Virus record (IMG/VR): IMGVR_UViG_3300020201_000072
Span: 1-33,019 of that record
Direction: 5' to 3' (one strand)
Source: a virus
DNA: 33,019 bases
Shown here in pieces: positions 3,440 to 33,019 of the stretch. The position numbers were made by a program, and so were the translations under genes. The notes under the pieces are model-generated. The model was not told the origin of the DNA and did not search any database. It saw only the letters and a list, made by a program, of their open reading frames with translations. Every line of letters starts with the position of its first letter. The first letter of the stretch is position 1.

Positions 3440-4654
3440 ATGTCAGAAAAGACCAAACCAACAGAAGATTTGCTAGAAAGATCAATCATTGACGCCAAAA
3501 AGGTCAAACAGGTTGCGTTTCAAAGTGCCGAACGAGCTTTAAAGCAAAAATTTTCCAAAGATTTAAAGAAGATTTATTTAAATAAACTCAACGAAGAGGC
3601 CGATATTGATTTCGGCGAAGACCTTCTTGAGGAAGAATATTCTATGTTGGGAGAGGAGGAAGACCCATTTGGCGACGAAGACCCGATGGGTGGAGCTGGT
3701 GGAGGAGATATGGGTGGAGCTGGTGGAGGAGATATGGGTGGTGGTGGATTAGACGGAGGTGGACCTCCACCTTCCGGTGGAGGTTTGGACCAAGGTCCCG
3801 CTCCTGCTCCGAATTCTATTTCTCCTATCGAACCACAAATTCCCACAACGCATGATGACATCACATTACCAAACGGCACAGAACCAGATGAAATTGAATT
3901 AGAACTTATTTTCGACAAAGATCAGTCACTCCCAGGTGATGTGAATCAATTCATGCAGAATGATACCGAACAACCTTCAGGGATGGATGATGGAATGGGC
4001 GAAGAAGACCCGTTTGGTGGTGGAATGGGTGAAGAAGACCCGTTTGGTGGTGGAATGGGCGAACAAACACCGAGTGGATTAGATGGTCCGGGTATGCCCG
4101 GAGAAGAAGAAGGAATTGATTTCGGATTCGGAGACGAAGATCCAAATCAACAAATGAATCCACGACAAAACAACGGAAAGGGATTTGATATGGCATCAAT
4201 CCAGTTAGATGATGATGTTTTACTTGATTACATCAACAATTCATTGAAAAATGATGAGCTAACAAGAAGAATGCAAGCGGATTTGTTGTTAGTTTCTGAA
4301 CAAGTTAATCTACTTAGCAAGCAACTGGATAAATCCAATTCAACTTTGGAATTATTACAAAGACAGAATTTGAGACTTATTTATCAAAATAAGACTCTAA
4401 TTGATGACTCGTTGAGTGAGCATCAAAAACAACATATTGTCAAAGCGTTAGATAAAGCTGCGACCTTGAATGAAGCAAAGGTAATTTTTGAAACTGCAAA
4501 ATCAAGCACACGAACGAAACCTGAAGGTAATTTGAACAAGATTCATGGAACAAGAGCAACTGGAACAACAAATCTCTTAAGGGAGAATAAGGGTTCCTTG
4601 CTTCCACAGGCTGACCGTTGGCAAGAATTGGCAGGCATTAAAAAGAGCAAATAA
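3440..4654 (+). CDS. Prohead scaffold/core protein (gp22-like)
   Basis: The 404-residue, very acidic product lies directly between the protease cluster and the major capsid gene, the T4 gene 22 position. An N-terminal helix of about 50 residues is followed by a long Gly/Pro/Asp/Glu/Met low-complexity region (about 70-250) with two in-frame repeat arrays (MGGAGGGD and GMGEEDPFGG). A conserved-looking helical C-terminal domain (about 250-404) contains a coiled-coil-like Leu/Gln/Asn segment and a LNEAKVIFETAK stretch reminiscent of gp22 C-termini. Scaffold proteins of this type form the inner core that shapes the prohead and are then degraded by the gp21 protease. The enlarged low-complexity middle is unusual. 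Assignment rests on position, charge and helical content. Confidence 0.7.
   Translation: MSEKTKPTEDLLERSIIDAKKVKQVAFQSAERALKQKFSKDLKKIYLNKLNEEADIDFGEDLLEEEYSMLGEEEDPFGDEDPMGGAGGGDMGGAGGGDMGGGGLDGGGPPPSGGGLDQGPAPAPNSISPIEPQIPTTHDDITLPNGTEPDEIELELIFDKDQSLPGDVNQFMQNDTEQPSGMDDGMGEEDPFGGGMGEEDPFGGGMGEQTPSGLDGPGMPGEEEGIDFGFGDEDPNQQMNPRQNNGKGFDMASIQLDDDVLLDYINNSLKNDELTRRMQADLLLVSEQVNLLSKQLDKSNSTLELLQRQNLRLIYQNKTLIDDSLSEHQKQHIVKALDKAATLNEAKVIFETAKSSTRTKPEGNLNKIHGTRATGTTNLLRENKGSLLPQADRWQELAGIKKSK
3686..3739 (+). repeat. In-frame 24-base tandem repeat in scaffold gene
   Basis: Two exact 24-base units starting at 3686 and 3710 each encode MGGAGGGD; a degenerate third unit follows. The repeat keeps the reading frame, so copy-number changes would alter protein length without breaking the gene. 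Confidence 0.8.
3991..4062 (+). repeat. In-frame 30-base tandem repeat in scaffold gene
   Basis: Two near-identical 30-base units (3991-4020 and 4021-4050, one C/T difference) plus a partial third encode GMGEEDPFGG-type decapeptides. The length is a multiple of three, so the frame is kept. Confidence 0.8.
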
Positions 4655-4715: not shown

Positions 4716-6455
4716 ATGAAAGAATTTCTACAAAGCATTATGGACAACGACGTTCCTGAAACAAGGAAGGCTCGTGATGAGAAGTTGGTAACCAAATGGA
4801 AACCATCGGGACTATTAGAGGGTATCGAAGACCCAATTAAACGCAGGAACATGGCGCGTCTTTTCGAAAATCAAAAGGACCACTTTAAGAGCATGCTCTT
4901 GAGTGAGCAAACAAGCATGGCCGGTGGAGATATCCAAGGTTTTGCGGCTGTTGCATTCCCAATTATTCGTCGTGTATTCGGTGATTTGGTTTCAACATCA
5001 GACATCGTTTCTGTTCAAACAATGGACCAACCAGTCGGATTGGTGTTCGTTCTAGACTTCGTGGCTGGTTCAAACAAGAGTGGAATGGGAATTAGAGAAG
5101 GAGAGTCGTTCTTCGGAGGCGGCAGGGTTGGTGCGCAAATTCTTTCGGGTGTTAACTTGGAGGGTACCAACGTTGAGAAGGGATTTTATTCTCTAAACAA
5201 CGGATATTCATCACCATCAGGCTCGGCAACTGTTAACTTTCTAGGACCAATTGGTTCGCCAATTGCATCAGGAACAGTTGGAGCAGTCAATTATTCTCTA
5301 GACGCACTGTGCCGTTTTGACCCAGACTTGTCAGGTTCATATGTTACAATTCTAACGGCATCAAAGTCTTCATTCGGACAATTGAATTTAAAGTCCTATA
5401 TGGCAATGACCGATACCGGCGTTCTATCAGGAACCCTGATAAAGCGTTTGACACAAGACTATGCGGCTGACCCATCTAAAATTTTATTCTTCTACTCATC
5501 AACAAATGCGGCCCAAGCACTTACCTTGACAGGAACGCTAGACGGAACGCCAACCGCCTCGCTGTCTCCAACTTACAATCGTTCGTTCAAGTTCCCAATC
5601 TTTGACAACTTCACAAATGCTACAGCAATGTCAGCAATTGGCGGAACAAGCATTTGGGGATTCGAATTTGACCAATCTGCGGGTTCGCAAGACATTCCAG
5701 AAGTCGATTTGAAGGTTGAGGCATTCAATATTCAAACAAACACCAAGATGTTAAAGGCAAAGTGGACAGCACAAGCTAGCCAGGATTTGTCAGCGTGGCA
5801 GAACTTGGATGCAGAAGTGGAATTAACTTCGTTCTTATCAGAGCAAGTGGCGATGGAAATCGACATGGAAGTCTTGAAGGACTTGGTTGAGAATGCAACT
5901 GGAACAACGCAATACTGGTCACGTCGTCCAGGTCGTTTCGTAAACAGGGACAATGGAGAAGTTATTCCAGCAGCGGTTACGGGTGACTTCACGGGTAACG
6001 TTGCAGAGTGGTATCAAACTCTAATTGAGACAATTAACGGTGCATCGGCTCTTATTGCTCGTAAGGTTCTAAAGGGTGGAGCGAATTTCTTGGTTTGCGG
6101 ACCAGAAGTTCAAAACATTCTAGAGACAACAAACCAATGGTTTGCTAATACGACAGTTGGAGAGGAGAATACTGGAGAGGTTGGTATTAAGAAGGAAGGT
6201 CAACTTCGCAAGAAGTGGGACGTGTATGTTACTCCATACTTCTACAGGAACCTGATTCTTGTTGGACGCAAGGGTTCATCTAACTTGGAGACAGGTTATG
6301 TGTACGCACCATACGTACCTTTGATTACCTCGCCAGCAATTCCTGACCCAACAGATATCTTCAAGTACGCAAAGGGTGTTATGACTCGTTACGGAAAGAG
6401 AATGATTAGACCAGACATGTACGGAAAAATCATCGTACAAAATCTAATCGGATAA
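4716..6455 (+). CDS. gp23: Major capsid protein (T4 gp23-like)
   Basis: This is the precursor of the hexameric shell subunit of the head (HK97 fold). At 579 residues it is somewhat longer than T4 gp23 (521). The charged N-terminal segment (1-64) is the likely propeptide. A gp21-type cleavage site (Leu-x-Glu) occurs at L62-S63-E64, matching the T4 cleavage after Glu65, and is followed by the family segment GGDIQGFAAVAFPIIRRVFG and a VQTMDQPVGLVF block. The C-terminus has the typical KWDVYVTPYF, PYVPL and RYGKRMIRPDMYGKI blocks. A strong terminator follows 20 bases downstream, as expected for a highly expressed gene. Confidence 0.95.
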   Translation: MKEFLQSIMDNDVPETRKARDEKLVTKWKPSGLLEGIEDPIKRRNMARLFENQKDHFKSMLLSEQTSMAGGDIQGFAAVAFPIIRRVFGDLVSTSDIVSVQTMDQPVGLVFVLDFVAGSNKSGMGIREGESFFGGGRVGAQILSGVNLEGTNVEKGFYSLNNGYSSPSGSATVNFLGPIGSPIASGTVGAVNYSLDALCRFDPDLSGSYVTILTASKSSFGQLNLKSYMAMTDTGVLSGTLIKRLTQDYAADPSKILFFYSSTNAAQALTLTGTLDGTPTASLSPTYNRSFKFPIFDNFTNATAMSAIGGTSIWGFEFDQSAGSQDIPEVDLKVEAFNIQTNTKMLKAKWTAQASQDLSAWQNLDAEVELTSFLSEQVAMEIDMEVLKDLVENATGTTQYWSRRPGRFVNRDNGEVIPAAVTGDFTGNVAEWYQTLIETINGASALIARKVLKGGANFLVCGPEVQNILETTNQWFANTTVGEENTGEVGIKKEGQLRKKWDVYVTPYFYRNLILVGRKGSSNLETGYVYAPYVPLITSPAIPDPTDIFKYAKGVMTRYGKRMIRPDMYGKIIVQNLIG

Positions 6456-24006: not shown

Positions 24007-24050
24007 CAAAGAGCGCATAGGTTGGGTAATACCAATTTGTGCGCTCTTTG
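24007..24050 (+). terminator. Terminator-like hairpin after gp32-like gene
   Basis: An 11-bp perfect stem (CAAAGAGCGCA with TGCGCTCTTTG) encloses a 22-base loop that itself contains a TTGG/CCAA stem. The downstream tract (TTGTTC) is only moderately T-rich, so it could terminate or protect the gp32 mRNA 3' end. Confidence 0.7.
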
Positions 24051-24057
24051 TTGTTCA

Positions 24058-24251
24058 TGGAGGGGTGACATAGCTATTTACAGCATGCCCATACGTGAGC
24101 ATAGATACCCAGCATGAAGGCTTTGGCCTTCCTACCCGCAGCTTGCGGGAAAGTTACGCTCGTGGACAGATCGACCTCTGCGCCTCGGATTTCCCGAGGC
24201 GTAAGCCGACTGGTTGAAGCGAGAAGTTCACCCGTGCTCACTCGTGAGCAC
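24058..24251 (+). ncRNA. GC-rich structured element, copy 1 (RNA-like), upstream of uvsX
   Basis: A 194-base intergenic element, GC-rich by count (106 G or C in 24061-24250, 56%), richer than its surroundings. Perfect hairpins: GAAGGC/GCCTTC (24116-24131), CCCGCA/TGCGGG (24135-24149), CGCCTCGG/CCGAGGCG (24181-24201), GTGCTCAC/GTGAGCAC (24234-24251). A long-range pair GGGTGA (24063-24068) with TCACCC (24228-24233) would close a multibranch structure. The first 128 bases (24058-24185) recur exactly at 32892-33019. The 3' segment (GGTTGAAGCGAGAAGTTCACC plus hairpin) recalls, from memory only, right ends and guide-RNA-like ends of IS200/IS605-type TnpB/IscB elements. No transposase or TnpB gene is in the window. 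A 5' leader of uvsX or a phage ncRNA is also possible. Confidence 0.6.
24074..24083 (+). promoter_or_regulatory. CTAWTTA motif inside structured element
   Basis: CTATTTACAG lies near the left end of the repeated element, the same core as the candidate late-promoter motifs at 3407, 4676, 6506 and 8858. If real, the structured RNA would be transcribed from it toward uvsX. It recurs in the second copy at 32908. Confidence 0.25.
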
Positions 24252-24271: not shown

Positions 24272-25402
24272 ATGAGCGAAGAGATAACCGAGAAAAAAGA
24301 AAAAGTAGAAAAAAAGGTTTTATCACCAGACGAAGTTAGAAAAGCAATCAATAAGAAGACCGGACACAAATCTGCTTTTGATATGACTAAAGAAAATCCG
24401 GCAGAAGTTAAAGATTGGATTCCATCTGGAAACAGATTGCTCGATTCGATCATGTGCGATGGAATGGTTGCTGGAATTCCCGTAGGACGAATCATCGAAT
24501 TAGCAGCAGAACCGGGAGGTGGTAAATCATTTCTGGCCGTTGCTTACGCAAAGAATGCTCTTTTGAAGGGGTATGATGTTGTGTATTTCTGTTCAGAGCC
24601 AGGAGGCGTTGAAGCAGATTTCTTGACCAAATTTATTGGCGTAGAAACTCTTGCAAGATTTACATATGTTGAAGTCAATTTCATGGAAGAAGTATTTGAA
24701 ACAATTGAATCATTGCTTGTAAATACAAATAACAAATACCTATTCGTTTGGGATTCTTACGCAGCAACGCCAGCGAAGGCTGAGGCTGACGGTGGATTTG
24801 ATCCAAGTTCGACATTCGCCATTGCTCCGCGAGTGGCAACGTTGGGATTGAGAAAGTTGTTGGTGCCCTTGGCGAAAAGGGAATCAACCTTGTTAGTTTT
24901 AAATCAAATCAGAGACAACATTGGTGCTGATAAGTACAAATTGATGTACGAACCTTATCGCATTCCTGGCGGAAAGGGAATGGCGCATGCTTATTCCAAT
25001 AGATTGTGGTTGTTTGTCAACAACTCAAAGGCCAAGTCGATTTCGGACGAGGGTGGCGAGAAGATTGGTAAAACTGGCAAGGTGATTCATAAAAAGAGTC
25101 GTCATGGAACAGAGGGTCGTGAAGCTCCAATCGCATTCACTTGGTCAGGTGACCATCCCCATTTACACAATGAGGAATTGTGGATGGATGCTCTTAAGGA
25201 ACGCAAGGTTTTGTTTTGGAAACAACCACGTTGGGTTCTTCGTTTAAATGGAGCTGAAATTCCCATTAAACTTGACGATTGGGAAACATTGCTAAAGGAT
25301 GTTGAGGCAAAGAAACTCATCATGGCGGCGTTGGACGAAGCATATGTTTATAATTATCAAAGTGTGACCGCGGAAATTCCGAGGGTTGCCGAGGAAGATT
25401 GA
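24272..25402 (+). CDS. uvsX: UvsX-like RecA-family recombinase
   Basis: RecA/UvsX recombinase for strand exchange and recombination-dependent replication. AAGG lies 9 bases before the ATG. The 376-residue product is close to T4 UvsX (391). Walker A is AEPGGGKS (residues 79-86, Lys85), with Ala instead of the first Gly; Walker B is YLFVWDS (Asp160); a LNQIRDNIGA segment follows (RecA L2-like), then RIPGGKGMAHAYSNRLWL. The N-terminal 40 residues are charged and helical. It is flanked by gp32-like SSB upstream and helicase/nuclease genes downstream, the expected recombination-replication set. The structured element at 24058-24251 forms or adjoins its 5' leader. Confidence 0.93.
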   Translation: MSEEITEKKEKVEKKVLSPDEVRKAINKKTGHKSAFDMTKENPAEVKDWIPSGNRLLDSIMCDGMVAGIPVGRIIELAAEPGGGKSFLAVAYAKNALLKGYDVVYFCSEPGGVEADFLTKFIGVETLARFTYVEVNFMEEVFETIESLLVNTNNKYLFVWDSYAATPAKAEADGGFDPSSTFAIAPRVATLGLRKLLVPLAKRESTLLVLNQIRDNIGADKYKLMYEPYRIPGGKGMAHAYSNRLWLFVNNSKAKSISDEGGEKIGKTGKVIHKKSRHGTEGREAPIAFTWSGDHPHLHNEELWMDALKERKVLFWKQPRWVLRLNGAEIPIKLDDWETLLKDVEAKKLIMAALDEAYVYNYQSVTAEIPRVAEED

Positions 25403-28174: not shown

Positions 28175-28208
28175 GGTGCTAGTTACTAACCACAAGGAGA
28201 GAAGAGAC

Positions 28209-30116
28209 ATGATTTTGATAGAGAAAACCAAAGAAATTGAGGCCGCATATTCAAATTACATCGCAATGTCGAGGTATGCACGCTATCGTGAGGATTTGGG
28301 ACGCAGAGAAACGTGGGAAGAGACGGTCGAACGACTTTGTTCGTTTTGGATAAACAAATACCCTGATCTATTTCCGTACGATGAAATGAAAAAAGCAATT
28401 TACCAACATGAGGTAATGCCATCAATGAGAAGTCTAATGACTGCCGGAAAAGCCCTCGAAAGGGACGAAATGGCAGCTTATAATTGTTCTTATCTAGCAA
28501 TCAACGATGCACGTTGTTTTGATGAGGTAATGTACATTTTAATGTGTGGAACTGGTGTTGGTTTCTCCGTCGAAAGACAAGAAGTCAAGAAATTGCCCAT
28601 TGTTGCGGAGGAATTCTTCCTTTCAGACTCGACAGTCAAGGTTAGAGATTCCAAAATTGGTTGGTGCACTGGATTGCGCGAATTGATCTCACTTTTATAT
28701 GCCGGAAAGATCCCAAATTGGGATTTGACTGGTTTACGTGCCGCTGGGGTTAAATTGAAGACTTTCGGGGGTCGTTCGTCTGGCCCAGGTCCATTGAATG
28801 ATGTATTTACCTTTTTTGTGGCGACATTCAAAAAGGCTGCCGGTCGTCAATTGACATCAATTGAATGTCACGACCTTGTTTGTAAAATCGCAGAGTGCGT
28901 GGTCGTTGGTGGTGTCAGAAGGTCGGCATTAATTTCACTTTCTAATCTTTCTGACGAAAGAATGAGGGACGCAAAGACAGGGCAGTGGTGGGAAAATCAA
29001 GGACAACGCGCTCTGGCAAATAATTCAGCAGCTTACACTGAAAAGCCGGATATTGGCATTTTTATGAAAGAATGGTTGTCGTTGTACAATTCTAAGTCCG
29101 GAGAACGTGGGATATTCAATAGAGTTGCGGCGAAGAAAAAAGCGGGAGAAAATGGAAGGCGAGATGTCAATCATGACTTTGGAACGAATCCTTGTGCAGA
29201 AATCCTCCTGCGCATGTTTGGCTTGTGTAATTTATCTGAGGCGGTTGTCCGTTACGACGACACCCTGGACTCCTTAAAGGAGAAGGTGCGCTTAGCGACG
29301 ATTCTAGGCACGTTCCAGAGCACTTTAACCAACTTCCGCTATGTTCGTTCCATTTGGAAGAAAAACGCCGAAGAAGAAAGGCTTTTGGGCGTTTCTTTGA
29401 CTGGAATTATGGACCATTTCGTAATGTCTGGTAAAGAATGGGATGACGGAAAACTTGAAATTTGGCTCGAAGAATTGAAACAAGTTGCGATTAAAACTAA
29501 TAAAGAATGGGCAGGAAAGCTTGGAATTAATGTTTCGGCAGCAATTACAACGGTAAAACCTTCTGGAACAGTTTCGCAATTGGTCAATTCAGCTTCGGGT
29601 ATTCATCCAAGATTCTCGGAGTATTATATTAGAACAGTGCGTTCGGATAAAAAAGACCCCTTGGCAACATTTTTAATGATTCAAGGTGTTCCTGTGGAGG
29701 ACGATGTAACCAAGCCAGGAAGCACATACGTATTCAGTTTTCCAATGAAATCACCTCCAGATACAGACTTTACTGACAACGTGAGCGCAATTGATCAATT
29801 GCGCATGTACTTGACATACAGAAGGCATTGGGCAGAACATAATATTTCAATTACAGTATATGTAAAAGAACATGAGTGGATGGAGGTTGGTGCGTGGGTT
29901 TATAAACATTTCGATGAATTGTGTGGCGTTTCGTTCCTTCCTCATTCTGAACACACATATAAACAAGCTCCATATCAACAAATTTCAGCAACTCAATACG
30001 AAGTGTTGGCCAATGAATTCCCAAATTTGAATTGGAGTCAATTCATTGAATACGAGGACACAACCAAGGGCAGTCAAGAGCTGGCCTGTCAATCGGGCGC
30101 CTGCGATATTTTATAA
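28209..30116 (+). CDS. nrdJ: Class II (adenosylcobalamin-dependent) ribonucleotide reductase
   Basis: Makes deoxyribonucleotides for phage DNA, using vitamin B12 and needing no oxygen. AAGGAG lies 9 bases before the ATG at 28209, preferred over a GTG at 28176. The 635-residue product has the class II monomeric layout: C93 in YNCSYL, radical-site NPCAEI (N327, C329, E331) and paired C340 in CNLSE, the GLRAAGVKLKTFGG and VGGVRRSA blocks, KPSGTVSQL (about 525-535) and the C-terminal redox pair C627-x4-C632. It is shorter than Lactobacillus RTPR (739). T4 itself uses class I (nrdA/nrdB), so class II is a notable departure, but other aquatic phages carry it. It depends on host B12. Confidence 0.93.
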   Translation: MILIEKTKEIEAAYSNYIAMSRYARYREDLGRRETWEETVERLCSFWINKYPDLFPYDEMKKAIYQHEVMPSMRSLMTAGKALERDEMAAYNCSYLAINDARCFDEVMYILMCGTGVGFSVERQEVKKLPIVAEEFFLSDSTVKVRDSKIGWCTGLRELISLLYAGKIPNWDLTGLRAAGVKLKTFGGRSSGPGPLNDVFTFFVATFKKAAGRQLTSIECHDLVCKIAECVVVGGVRRSALISLSNLSDERMRDAKTGQWWENQGQRALANNSAAYTEKPDIGIFMKEWLSLYNSKSGERGIFNRVAAKKKAGENGRRDVNHDFGTNPCAEILLRMFGLCNLSEAVVRYDDTLDSLKEKVRLATILGTFQSTLTNFRYVRSIWKKNAEEERLLGVSLTGIMDHFVMSGKEWDDGKLEIWLEELKQVAIKTNKEWAGKLGINVSAAITTVKPSGTVSQLVNSASGIHPRFSEYYIRTVRSDKKDPLATFLMIQGVPVEDDVTKPGSTYVFSFPMKSPPDTDFTDNVSAIDQLRMYLTYRRHWAEHNISITVYVKEHEWMEVGAWVYKHFDELCGVSFLPHSEHTYKQAPYQQISATQYEVLANEFPNLNWSQFIEYEDTTKGSQELACQSGACDIL

Positions 30117-32182: not shown

Positions 32183-32272
32183 GGAGACGTGGTCGAGTGG
32201 TTTATGGCTACAGTCTTGAAAACTGTCGGGGGCGAAAGTCCTCCGTAGGTTCAAATCCTACCGTTTCCTCCA
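32183..32272 (+). tRNA. trnS(uga): tRNA-Ser (UGA anticodon)
   Basis: A 90-base class II tRNA. The acceptor GGAGACG pairs with CGTTTCC (one G-T pair), the anticodon stem ACAGT/ACTGT holds the loop CTTGAAA (anticodon TGA), the long variable arm CGGGGGCGAAAGTCCTCCG is typical of Ser tRNA, and the T loop is GTTCAAAT. The CCA end is encoded. Confidence 0.93.
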
Positions 32273-32280
32273 ACACAAAC

Positions 32281-32357
32281 GCCGATGTAGCACAATTTGG
32301 CAGTGCAGCAAATTTGTAATTTGACGGTTGAGGGTTCAAGTCCTTTCGTCGGCACCA
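32281..32357 (+). tRNA. trnT(ugu): tRNA-Thr (UGU anticodon)
   Basis: The acceptor GCCGATG pairs with CGTCGGC (one T-G pair), as in bacterial Thr tRNAs. The anticodon loop TTTGTAA gives TGT; the anticodon stem has one G-A mismatch at its outer end. The T arm is GAGGG-TTCAAGT-CCTTT with wobble pairs, and ACCA is encoded. It is slightly degenerate but probably functional. Confidence 0.88.
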
Positions 32358-32362
32358 AACAA

Positions 32363-32438
32363 GCCCAATTAGCGTAGCGGATAGCGCAGTTGACTACGAA
32401 TCAACAGGTCACAAGTTCGAATCTTGTATTGGGCGCCA
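32363..32438 (+). tRNA. trnR(acg): tRNA-Arg (ACG anticodon)
   Basis: The acceptor GCCCAAT pairs with ATTGGGC. The anticodon stem GTTGA/TCAAC holds loop CTACGAA (anticodon ACG, usually edited to ICG by host TadA). The T arm ACAAG-TTCGAAT-CTTGT is perfect, and GCCA is encoded. Confidence 0.93.
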
Positions 32439-32466
32439 TACGTAGGTATAATTCCAAAGGGGTAAT

Positions 32467-32877
32467 ATGTTAATCGAGAAAATTAGAGCCGACCGAATGG
32501 CGGCTTTTAAGATCAAGGATCAATTTACCAAGGATTTACTTGGGACATTAATTGGTGAGGCATGTAGGGTTCAAAAAGAACCAGATGATGCTTCTGTTAT
32601 TTCAACAATCAAAAAGTTCATTCATAACATTGATTTCACTTTGGTTGTTCCGAATATTACGGATGACCAAAGTAACCAATTGAAGGCTGAACTTAAGATG
32701 TTGATGACATACCTTCCCACTCAAATGACAGAGGATGAGGTTCGTAATGAAATCTCTTTCGTTCTCGAACAGGGATTGAATACTGTCGCTATGATCATGG
32801 GTTGGTTCAAGAAAAAGTACGATGGATTGTATGACGCCAGGATGCTTTCTCGCATTGTAAAAGATATTTTGGAATGA
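32467..32877 (+). CDS. GatB/YqeY-like protein
   Basis: The 136-residue product matches the YqeY layout (about 150 aa, related to the C-terminal tRNA-binding tail of GatB): an N-terminal LIEKIRADRMAAFKIKD helix, a middle LKAELKMLMTYLPTQMTEDEVRNEI block (about 76-100; YLPxQ is a family hallmark), and a final WFKKKYDGLYDARMLSRIVKDIL helix. AAGGGG lies about 6 bases before the ATG. It sits right after three tRNA genes. YqeY-type proteins are thought to act with tRNA or amidotransferase chemistry, though the phage role is unknown. Confidence 0.75.
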   Translation: MLIEKIRADRMAAFKIKDQFTKDLLGTLIGEACRVQKEPDDASVISTIKKFIHNIDFTLVVPNITDDQSNQLKAELKMLMTYLPTQMTEDEVRNEISFVLEQGLNTVAMIMGWFKKKYDGLYDARMLSRIVKDILE

Positions 32878-32891
32878 ATTTGTTTGTCATT

Positions 32892-33019
32892 TGGAGGGGT
32901 GACATAGCTATTTACAGCATGCCCATACGTGAGCATAGATACCCAGCATGAAGGCTTTGGCCTTCCTACCCGCAGCTTGCGGGAAAGTTACGCTCGTGGA
33001 CAGATCGACCTCTGCGCCT
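32892..33019 (+). ncRNA. GC-rich structured element, copy 2 (cut by window end)
   Basis: These 128 bases are identical to 24058-24185, including the hairpins at GAAGGC/GCCTTC and CCCGCA/TGCGGG. The window ends inside the 5' arm of the third hairpin, so the rest is not visible. It follows the YqeY-like gene by 14 bases, in the same gene-end setting as copy 1. Confidence 0.75.
32908..32917 (+). promoter_or_regulatory. CTAWTTA motif inside structured element copy 2
   Basis: CTATTTACAG, the exact counterpart of the motif at 24074. It carries the same caveats and is not independent evidence, because it is part of the duplication. Confidence 0.2.

Follow-up and report, generated by a model that had tools for sequence, protein, structure and literature searches.

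A duplicated, standalone homologue of TnpB guide RNAs in a genome fragment of a T4-like phage

On the evidence of sequence and covariation, an intergenic element at positions 24058-24251 is a genuine homologue of the guide RNAs of TnpB (omegaRNAs, or reRNAs), standing alone and duplicated. The window, i.e., the whole stretch of 33,019 bases analyzed here, is a virus record from IMG/VR (IMGVR_UViG_3300020201_000072) and represents a genome fragment. The explanation that we favor, with a probability of about 0.55, is that it represents an omegaRNA of the IS200/IS605 type that stands alone, without tnpB; it would derive from an element that lost its proteins, would have been duplicated, and would be bound in trans by TnpB or TldR.

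Judged from its sequence, the window is part of the genome of a distant T4-like myovirus. T4-like genes seen include those for a prohead protease, a gp23-like capsid protein, a tail sheath protein and a T4-type baseplate protein; further genes include an ssb-like gene, uvsX, a DnaB-like helicase gene and three tRNA genes. In a capsid comparison, the closest capsids were those of Flavobacterium phage immuto, Microcystis phage Mel-JY01 and uncultured huge phages. A UvsX search of viral contigs for relatives of the phage found none, and a capsid search of viral contigs found one related contig of 12 kb, from which the element is absent. Two other features of the window are mentioned for completeness. 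The gene immediately upstream of the capsid gene contains three tandem copies of a 30-nt repeat (3988-4077; GGMGEEDPFGG-like), and a 646-aa frame at 28176-30116, with similarity to ribonucleotide reductase (RNR) in short patches only (Pfam RNR barrel at 455-492, alpha domain at 28-65), suggests a very divergent or altered RNR.

The first copy of the element is located in the gap between the ssb-like gene and uvsX, on the same strand as uvsX. A terminator-like hairpin of 19 pairs (24007-24050, + strand), which is 3' of the ssb-like gene, abuts the upstream side of the element, and the uvsX-like recombinase gene (24272-25402, + strand) follows directly 3'. The second copy (32892-33019, + strand) lies directly 3' of a yqeY-like gene (PHROG: tRNA amidotransferase); just upstream of this copy, at 32183-32877, the yqeY-like gene is preceded by a cluster of tRNA-Ser, tRNA-Thr and tRNA-Arg. 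As claimed in an earlier note on this DNA, at least 128 bases are identical at the two places, i.e., 24058-24185 equals 32892-33019 exactly over 128 nt at a spacing of 8834, and there is no other long repeat pair within the window. To the left, the copies read CAT and TTT, respectively, before the shared GGAGG, and the first T of the 128-nt match is probably due to chance, which would leave a common block of 127 nt. This block stops exactly at the contig end, where the second copy is cut within the central hairpin of the element; 127 nt is the length by which sequences typically overlap where a de Bruijn assembly graph with k=127 branches. We infer that the contig stops owing to the repeat, with the break at a k=127 graph branch, and that the second copy was thus shortened by assembly and lacks its 3' end; the repeat itself would be truly present at two genomic places. 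The copy number in the genome exceeds one (two copies, identical over 127-128 nt). The earlier note had proposed recent duplication or gene conversion. The exact identity is compatible with recent duplication or spread, but as the second copy lacks its 3' end, transposition, gene conversion and simple duplication are not distinguishable.

The 5' segment of the element (24059-24133, + strand), which is exact in both copies and for which no homologue was found, includes the hairpin GAAGGC-TTTG-GCCTTC (24116-24131, + strand). It also holds a 10-codon open frame (MPIREHRYPA, 24087-24119) without a well-placed ribosome site, which is probably a chance frame. The likeness of the 5' segment to the hairpin at the 3' end of the element, considered as a pair of transposon-end repeats, was not significant (p 0.04-0.10), nor was its likeness to the left end of two of the omegaRNA loci discussed below (L022 and L032; p about 0.06).

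The end of the element had been likened to those of guide RNAs linked to IS200/IS605 TnpB or to IscB, and an Rfam search had been proposed. At the gathering threshold, no Rfam family was found over the element and only tRNAs passed in the window; RAGATH-18 (RF03064) did match 24159-24225, with 23.1 bits (E 0.05), which is below its gathering cut-off of 44.9 bits. BLAST of the element against phages and plasmids gave no match. Among exact 3' patterns searched in viral contigs, a 16-mer gave chance matches only, and patterns close to the window sequence (CTCGT/GCGAG, or GAAGTTCAC without a stem-loop), searched in genome and viral collections, gave none or chance matches, i.e., matches within coding sequence or with no TnpB RNA around them. 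A degenerate pattern search of IMG/VR contigs found about twenty real relatives, many of them directly 3' of the end of a tnpB gene. These relatives form two sets by their 3' end, which is GUUCAC in one and UACUG or UACGG in the other. Several contigs of the GUUCAC set encode a Y1 TnpA (IS200/IS605), while three contigs of the other set (L016, L020 and L034) show a serine-recombinase match (IS607-like).

A covariance model (R1) was built from 13 omegaRNA sequences of the GUUCAC set only, all from other phage contigs and with no window sequence included. Run with filters off, R1 matched 24121-24231 of the window (+ strand), scoring 32.4 bits (E 3.9e-6). The second-best match in the window had an E-value of 0.58; these E-values are rough because the calibration of the model was short. 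Over 1.28 Mb of non-carrier phage records, the best background match reached 20.3 bits and lay inside a gene. No match was observed on 134 kb of control loci, and no convincing match on the whole of LR756508, LR756511 and Mel-JY01, which are among the phages nearest by capsid. LR756508.1 (loci L063-L068), an uncultured phage of 484 kb, itself carries ten TnpB-family genes; the 3' flanks of six of them were examined, and all six ends were of other kinds, unlike that of the window RNA. Overall, the region 24121-24231 represents an omegaRNA scaffold homologous to IS200/IS605 TnpB RNAs. The TnpB side of the likeness drawn in the earlier note has thus been borne out by the model match and by covariation, whereas kinship with IscB RNAs (HEARO) found no support, as the matches are TnpB RNAs and no such family reached the Rfam threshold.

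The scaffold includes a 5' flanking hairpin, CCCGC-AGCTT-GCGGG (24135-24149, + strand), and a RAGATH-18-like core (24159-24223, + strand). The core comprises P1, in which CTCGT (24159-24163) pairs with GCGAG (24219-24223), P2 (CAG/CTG and TCG/CGA, within the same interval) and the central hairpin GCCTCGG-ATTTC-CCGAGGC (24182-24200), all on the + strand. In a joint alignment of 26 RNAs, which was fitted to the model, 93% of cells were paired as compared to at most 52% in slid controls, and for 16 of 20 pairs both sides were changed in at least one RNA. The pairing of P1 is unambiguous because invariant bases bound it; P1 reads CUCGU/GCGAG in the window, and its variants include CCUGU/GCAGG and CUUGU/GCAAG. 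Compensatory changes between the window and its relatives occur in the flanking hairpin, P1 and P2. For the flanking hairpin of the window (CUACCCGC-AGCUU-GCGGGAAAGUUACGC), the best alignment by eye was with that of the relative L039 (CUACCUAC-GGAAC-GUAGGGAAGUUAAGC). Pseudoknots between the flanking loop and the RNA end are possible in both sets of relatives and covary in the second (CAGUA/UACUG and CCGUA/UACGG). In the window, the loop AGCTT is complementary to AAGTT at 24224-24228, giving five pairs, of which one is G-U, in a shifted register; this is only suggestive of a pseudoknot kept in this RNA. Homologues with covarying pairs, on which the earlier note had made its reading depend, were therefore found, both through a model free of window sequence and through the pairs themselves.

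The reRNA of IS607 TnpB (ISFba1) has RAGATH-18 as its core, and its 5' flanking loop forms a pseudoknot with the 3' end (PMC11061315). The window RNA shares with RAGATH-18 the core fold and the conserved UGAAGC..GAA strand, and may share the loop-to-3'-end pseudoknot; it differs in that it scores 23.1 of the 44.9 bits and in that its 3' end is IS200/IS605-like rather than IS607-like. With the IS200/IS605 omegaRNAs of phage contigs (L039, L024, L022 and L032), it shares the flanking hairpin, P1, P2, a variable central stem, GGTTGAAGCNNGAAG and the GTTCAC scaffold end. For these RNAs, however, the usual location is just 3' of tnpB, and a stem-loop precedes GTTCAC; both are lacking from the window RNA. 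In L024, two identical omegaRNA cores were observed in inverted orientation about 2.4 kb apart (2742-2879, - strand, and 5095-5232, + strand), one 3' of the broken end of a tnpB gene and the other without tnpB.

The element is also GC-richer than its surroundings, as had been noted (56% as compared to 40% in the window, which places it above the 99.8th percentile among 194-nt stretches), and the hairpins that had been claimed are present; its RNA fold beats 200 of 200 shuffles (z -3.47). Such a fold, placed between the terminator-like hairpin and the start of uvsX and on the strand of uvsX, could be a cis-acting leader controlling the expression of uvsX and of the gene 3' of the second copy, and the whole fold could be closed by GGGTGA (24063-24068) pairing with its complement TCACCC (24228-24233). 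The structure is, however, already explained by homology to TnpB RNAs, so that a leader role is not needed, and the long closing helix, although it can form as the earlier note had proposed, is not a conserved feature: in the homologues, GUUCAC is the end of the scaffold and pairs in the pseudoknot. A leader is the least probable of the explanations that we weighed.

The scaffold 3' end, AGTTCAC, is located at 24225-24231 (+ strand), exactly where the R1 model ends. The terminal stem-loop that precedes GUUCAC in every one of the 13 RNAs used for the model is absent from the window; it is not known to be essential, and a pattern search for other forms without this stem-loop found none. In IS200/IS605 elements, the scaffold terminates with the element and the adjacent flank represents the guide (PMC10711439). 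In the first copy, the guide position (24232-24251, + strand) is occupied by a perfect 7-bp hairpin, GTGCTCA-CTCG-TGAGCAC. This 20-nt flank (CCGUGCUCACUCGUGAGCAC) has a folding energy of -9.1 kcal/mol, as compared to -3.5 to 0 in 15 relatives, and only 0.2% of the 20-mers in the window match its stability. The hairpin either predates the element in the ssb-uvsX gap or else belongs to the RNA. With its guide slot taken up by a hairpin, the first copy may be a poor or an altered guide. A guide target was sought in the window and none was found, the near matches being one site at 4.9 kb and two places within the element, namely the palindrome and the 5' segment.

The loss of the terminal stem-loop and the hairpin in the guide slot, together with a window without a protein partner, would also fit a relic, i.e., decaying right ends of IS200/IS605 elements that lie in intergenic gaps and that no protein now uses. 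We regard this as unlikely, as the remaining helices of the scaffold are preserved, with compensatory changes, and both copies are identical. Phage genomes, moreover, rarely keep useless DNA.

An intact scaffold core with a hairpin placed exactly at the guide start, far more stable than the corresponding flanks of the 15 relatives, might instead be read, by analogy, as a decoy: a hairpin-capped, guide-less omegaRNA scaffold that would sequester nucleases resembling TnpB or Cas12, whether these belong to the host or to rival elements. There is a precedent in the solitary CRISPR repeats encoded by phages, which are inhibitory (RNA anti-CRISPRs, Racr; PMC10651486). Both would be phage-encoded scaffold RNAs of a nuclease without the nuclease, but the likeness is one of principle only, since Racr mimics a CRISPR repeat and the window RNA resembles a TnpB omegaRNA. 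As the proposal is based on a single 3' end, the second copy being cut upstream of the hairpin region, and as the hairpin may have been in the gap before the element, we consider a decoy role highly unlikely.

The favored reading of a standalone omegaRNA acting in trans calls for a protein partner. The window of 33,019 bases contains no match to TnpB (PF07282), and thus no TnpB-family or tldR gene beside the RNA, and encodes neither a Y1 TnpA nor a serine TnpA, in agreement with the earlier statement that no mobile-element protein is visible. As the window is a fragment (33 kb), a partner gene may lie elsewhere in the phage. Four further IMG/VR contigs, which may be incomplete, carry an omegaRNA without a TnpB detectable by Pfam (L043, 412 kb; L033, 148 kb; L042, 38 kb; and L041, 13 kb), and standalone omegaRNAs thus seem to recur in phages. 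Bacterial omegaRNA loci without a nuclease gene of their own have also been reported. Phage TldRs regulate host genes with guide RNAs of the TnpB type, and it has been proposed that one broken tldR locus provides guides in trans (PMC13418256). The window RNA is comparable in that it, too, is a TnpB-type RNA in a phage genome outside an active transposon; in the TldR systems, however, tldR adjoins its RNA, whereas none was seen in the window.

Under the favored reading, the ancestor would have been an IS200/IS605 element, of which the right end was kept while tnpA and tnpB were lost. As to the mode of spread, the short non-autonomous unit that remained may then have been copied inside the phage. 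The RNA would be transcribed along with phage genes and would fold as a TnpB scaffold. A TnpB, or else a TldR (nuclease-dead), supplied from elsewhere in the phage, from the host or from a co-infecting element would bind it in trans, now or formerly, and the sequence on the 3' side of GUUCAC would serve as the guide.

TnpB guide RNAs have mostly been studied as the tail of tnpB, and here a T4-like phage has one that stands alone and is duplicated. The lone omegaRNAs found here and in the four further phage contigs raise the question of whether phages retain such RNAs for redirecting TnpB in trans or for blocking it. A scaffold without the terminal stem-loop would reveal what TnpB can dispense with, and a decoy, if true, would represent an RNA inhibitor of transposon nucleases.
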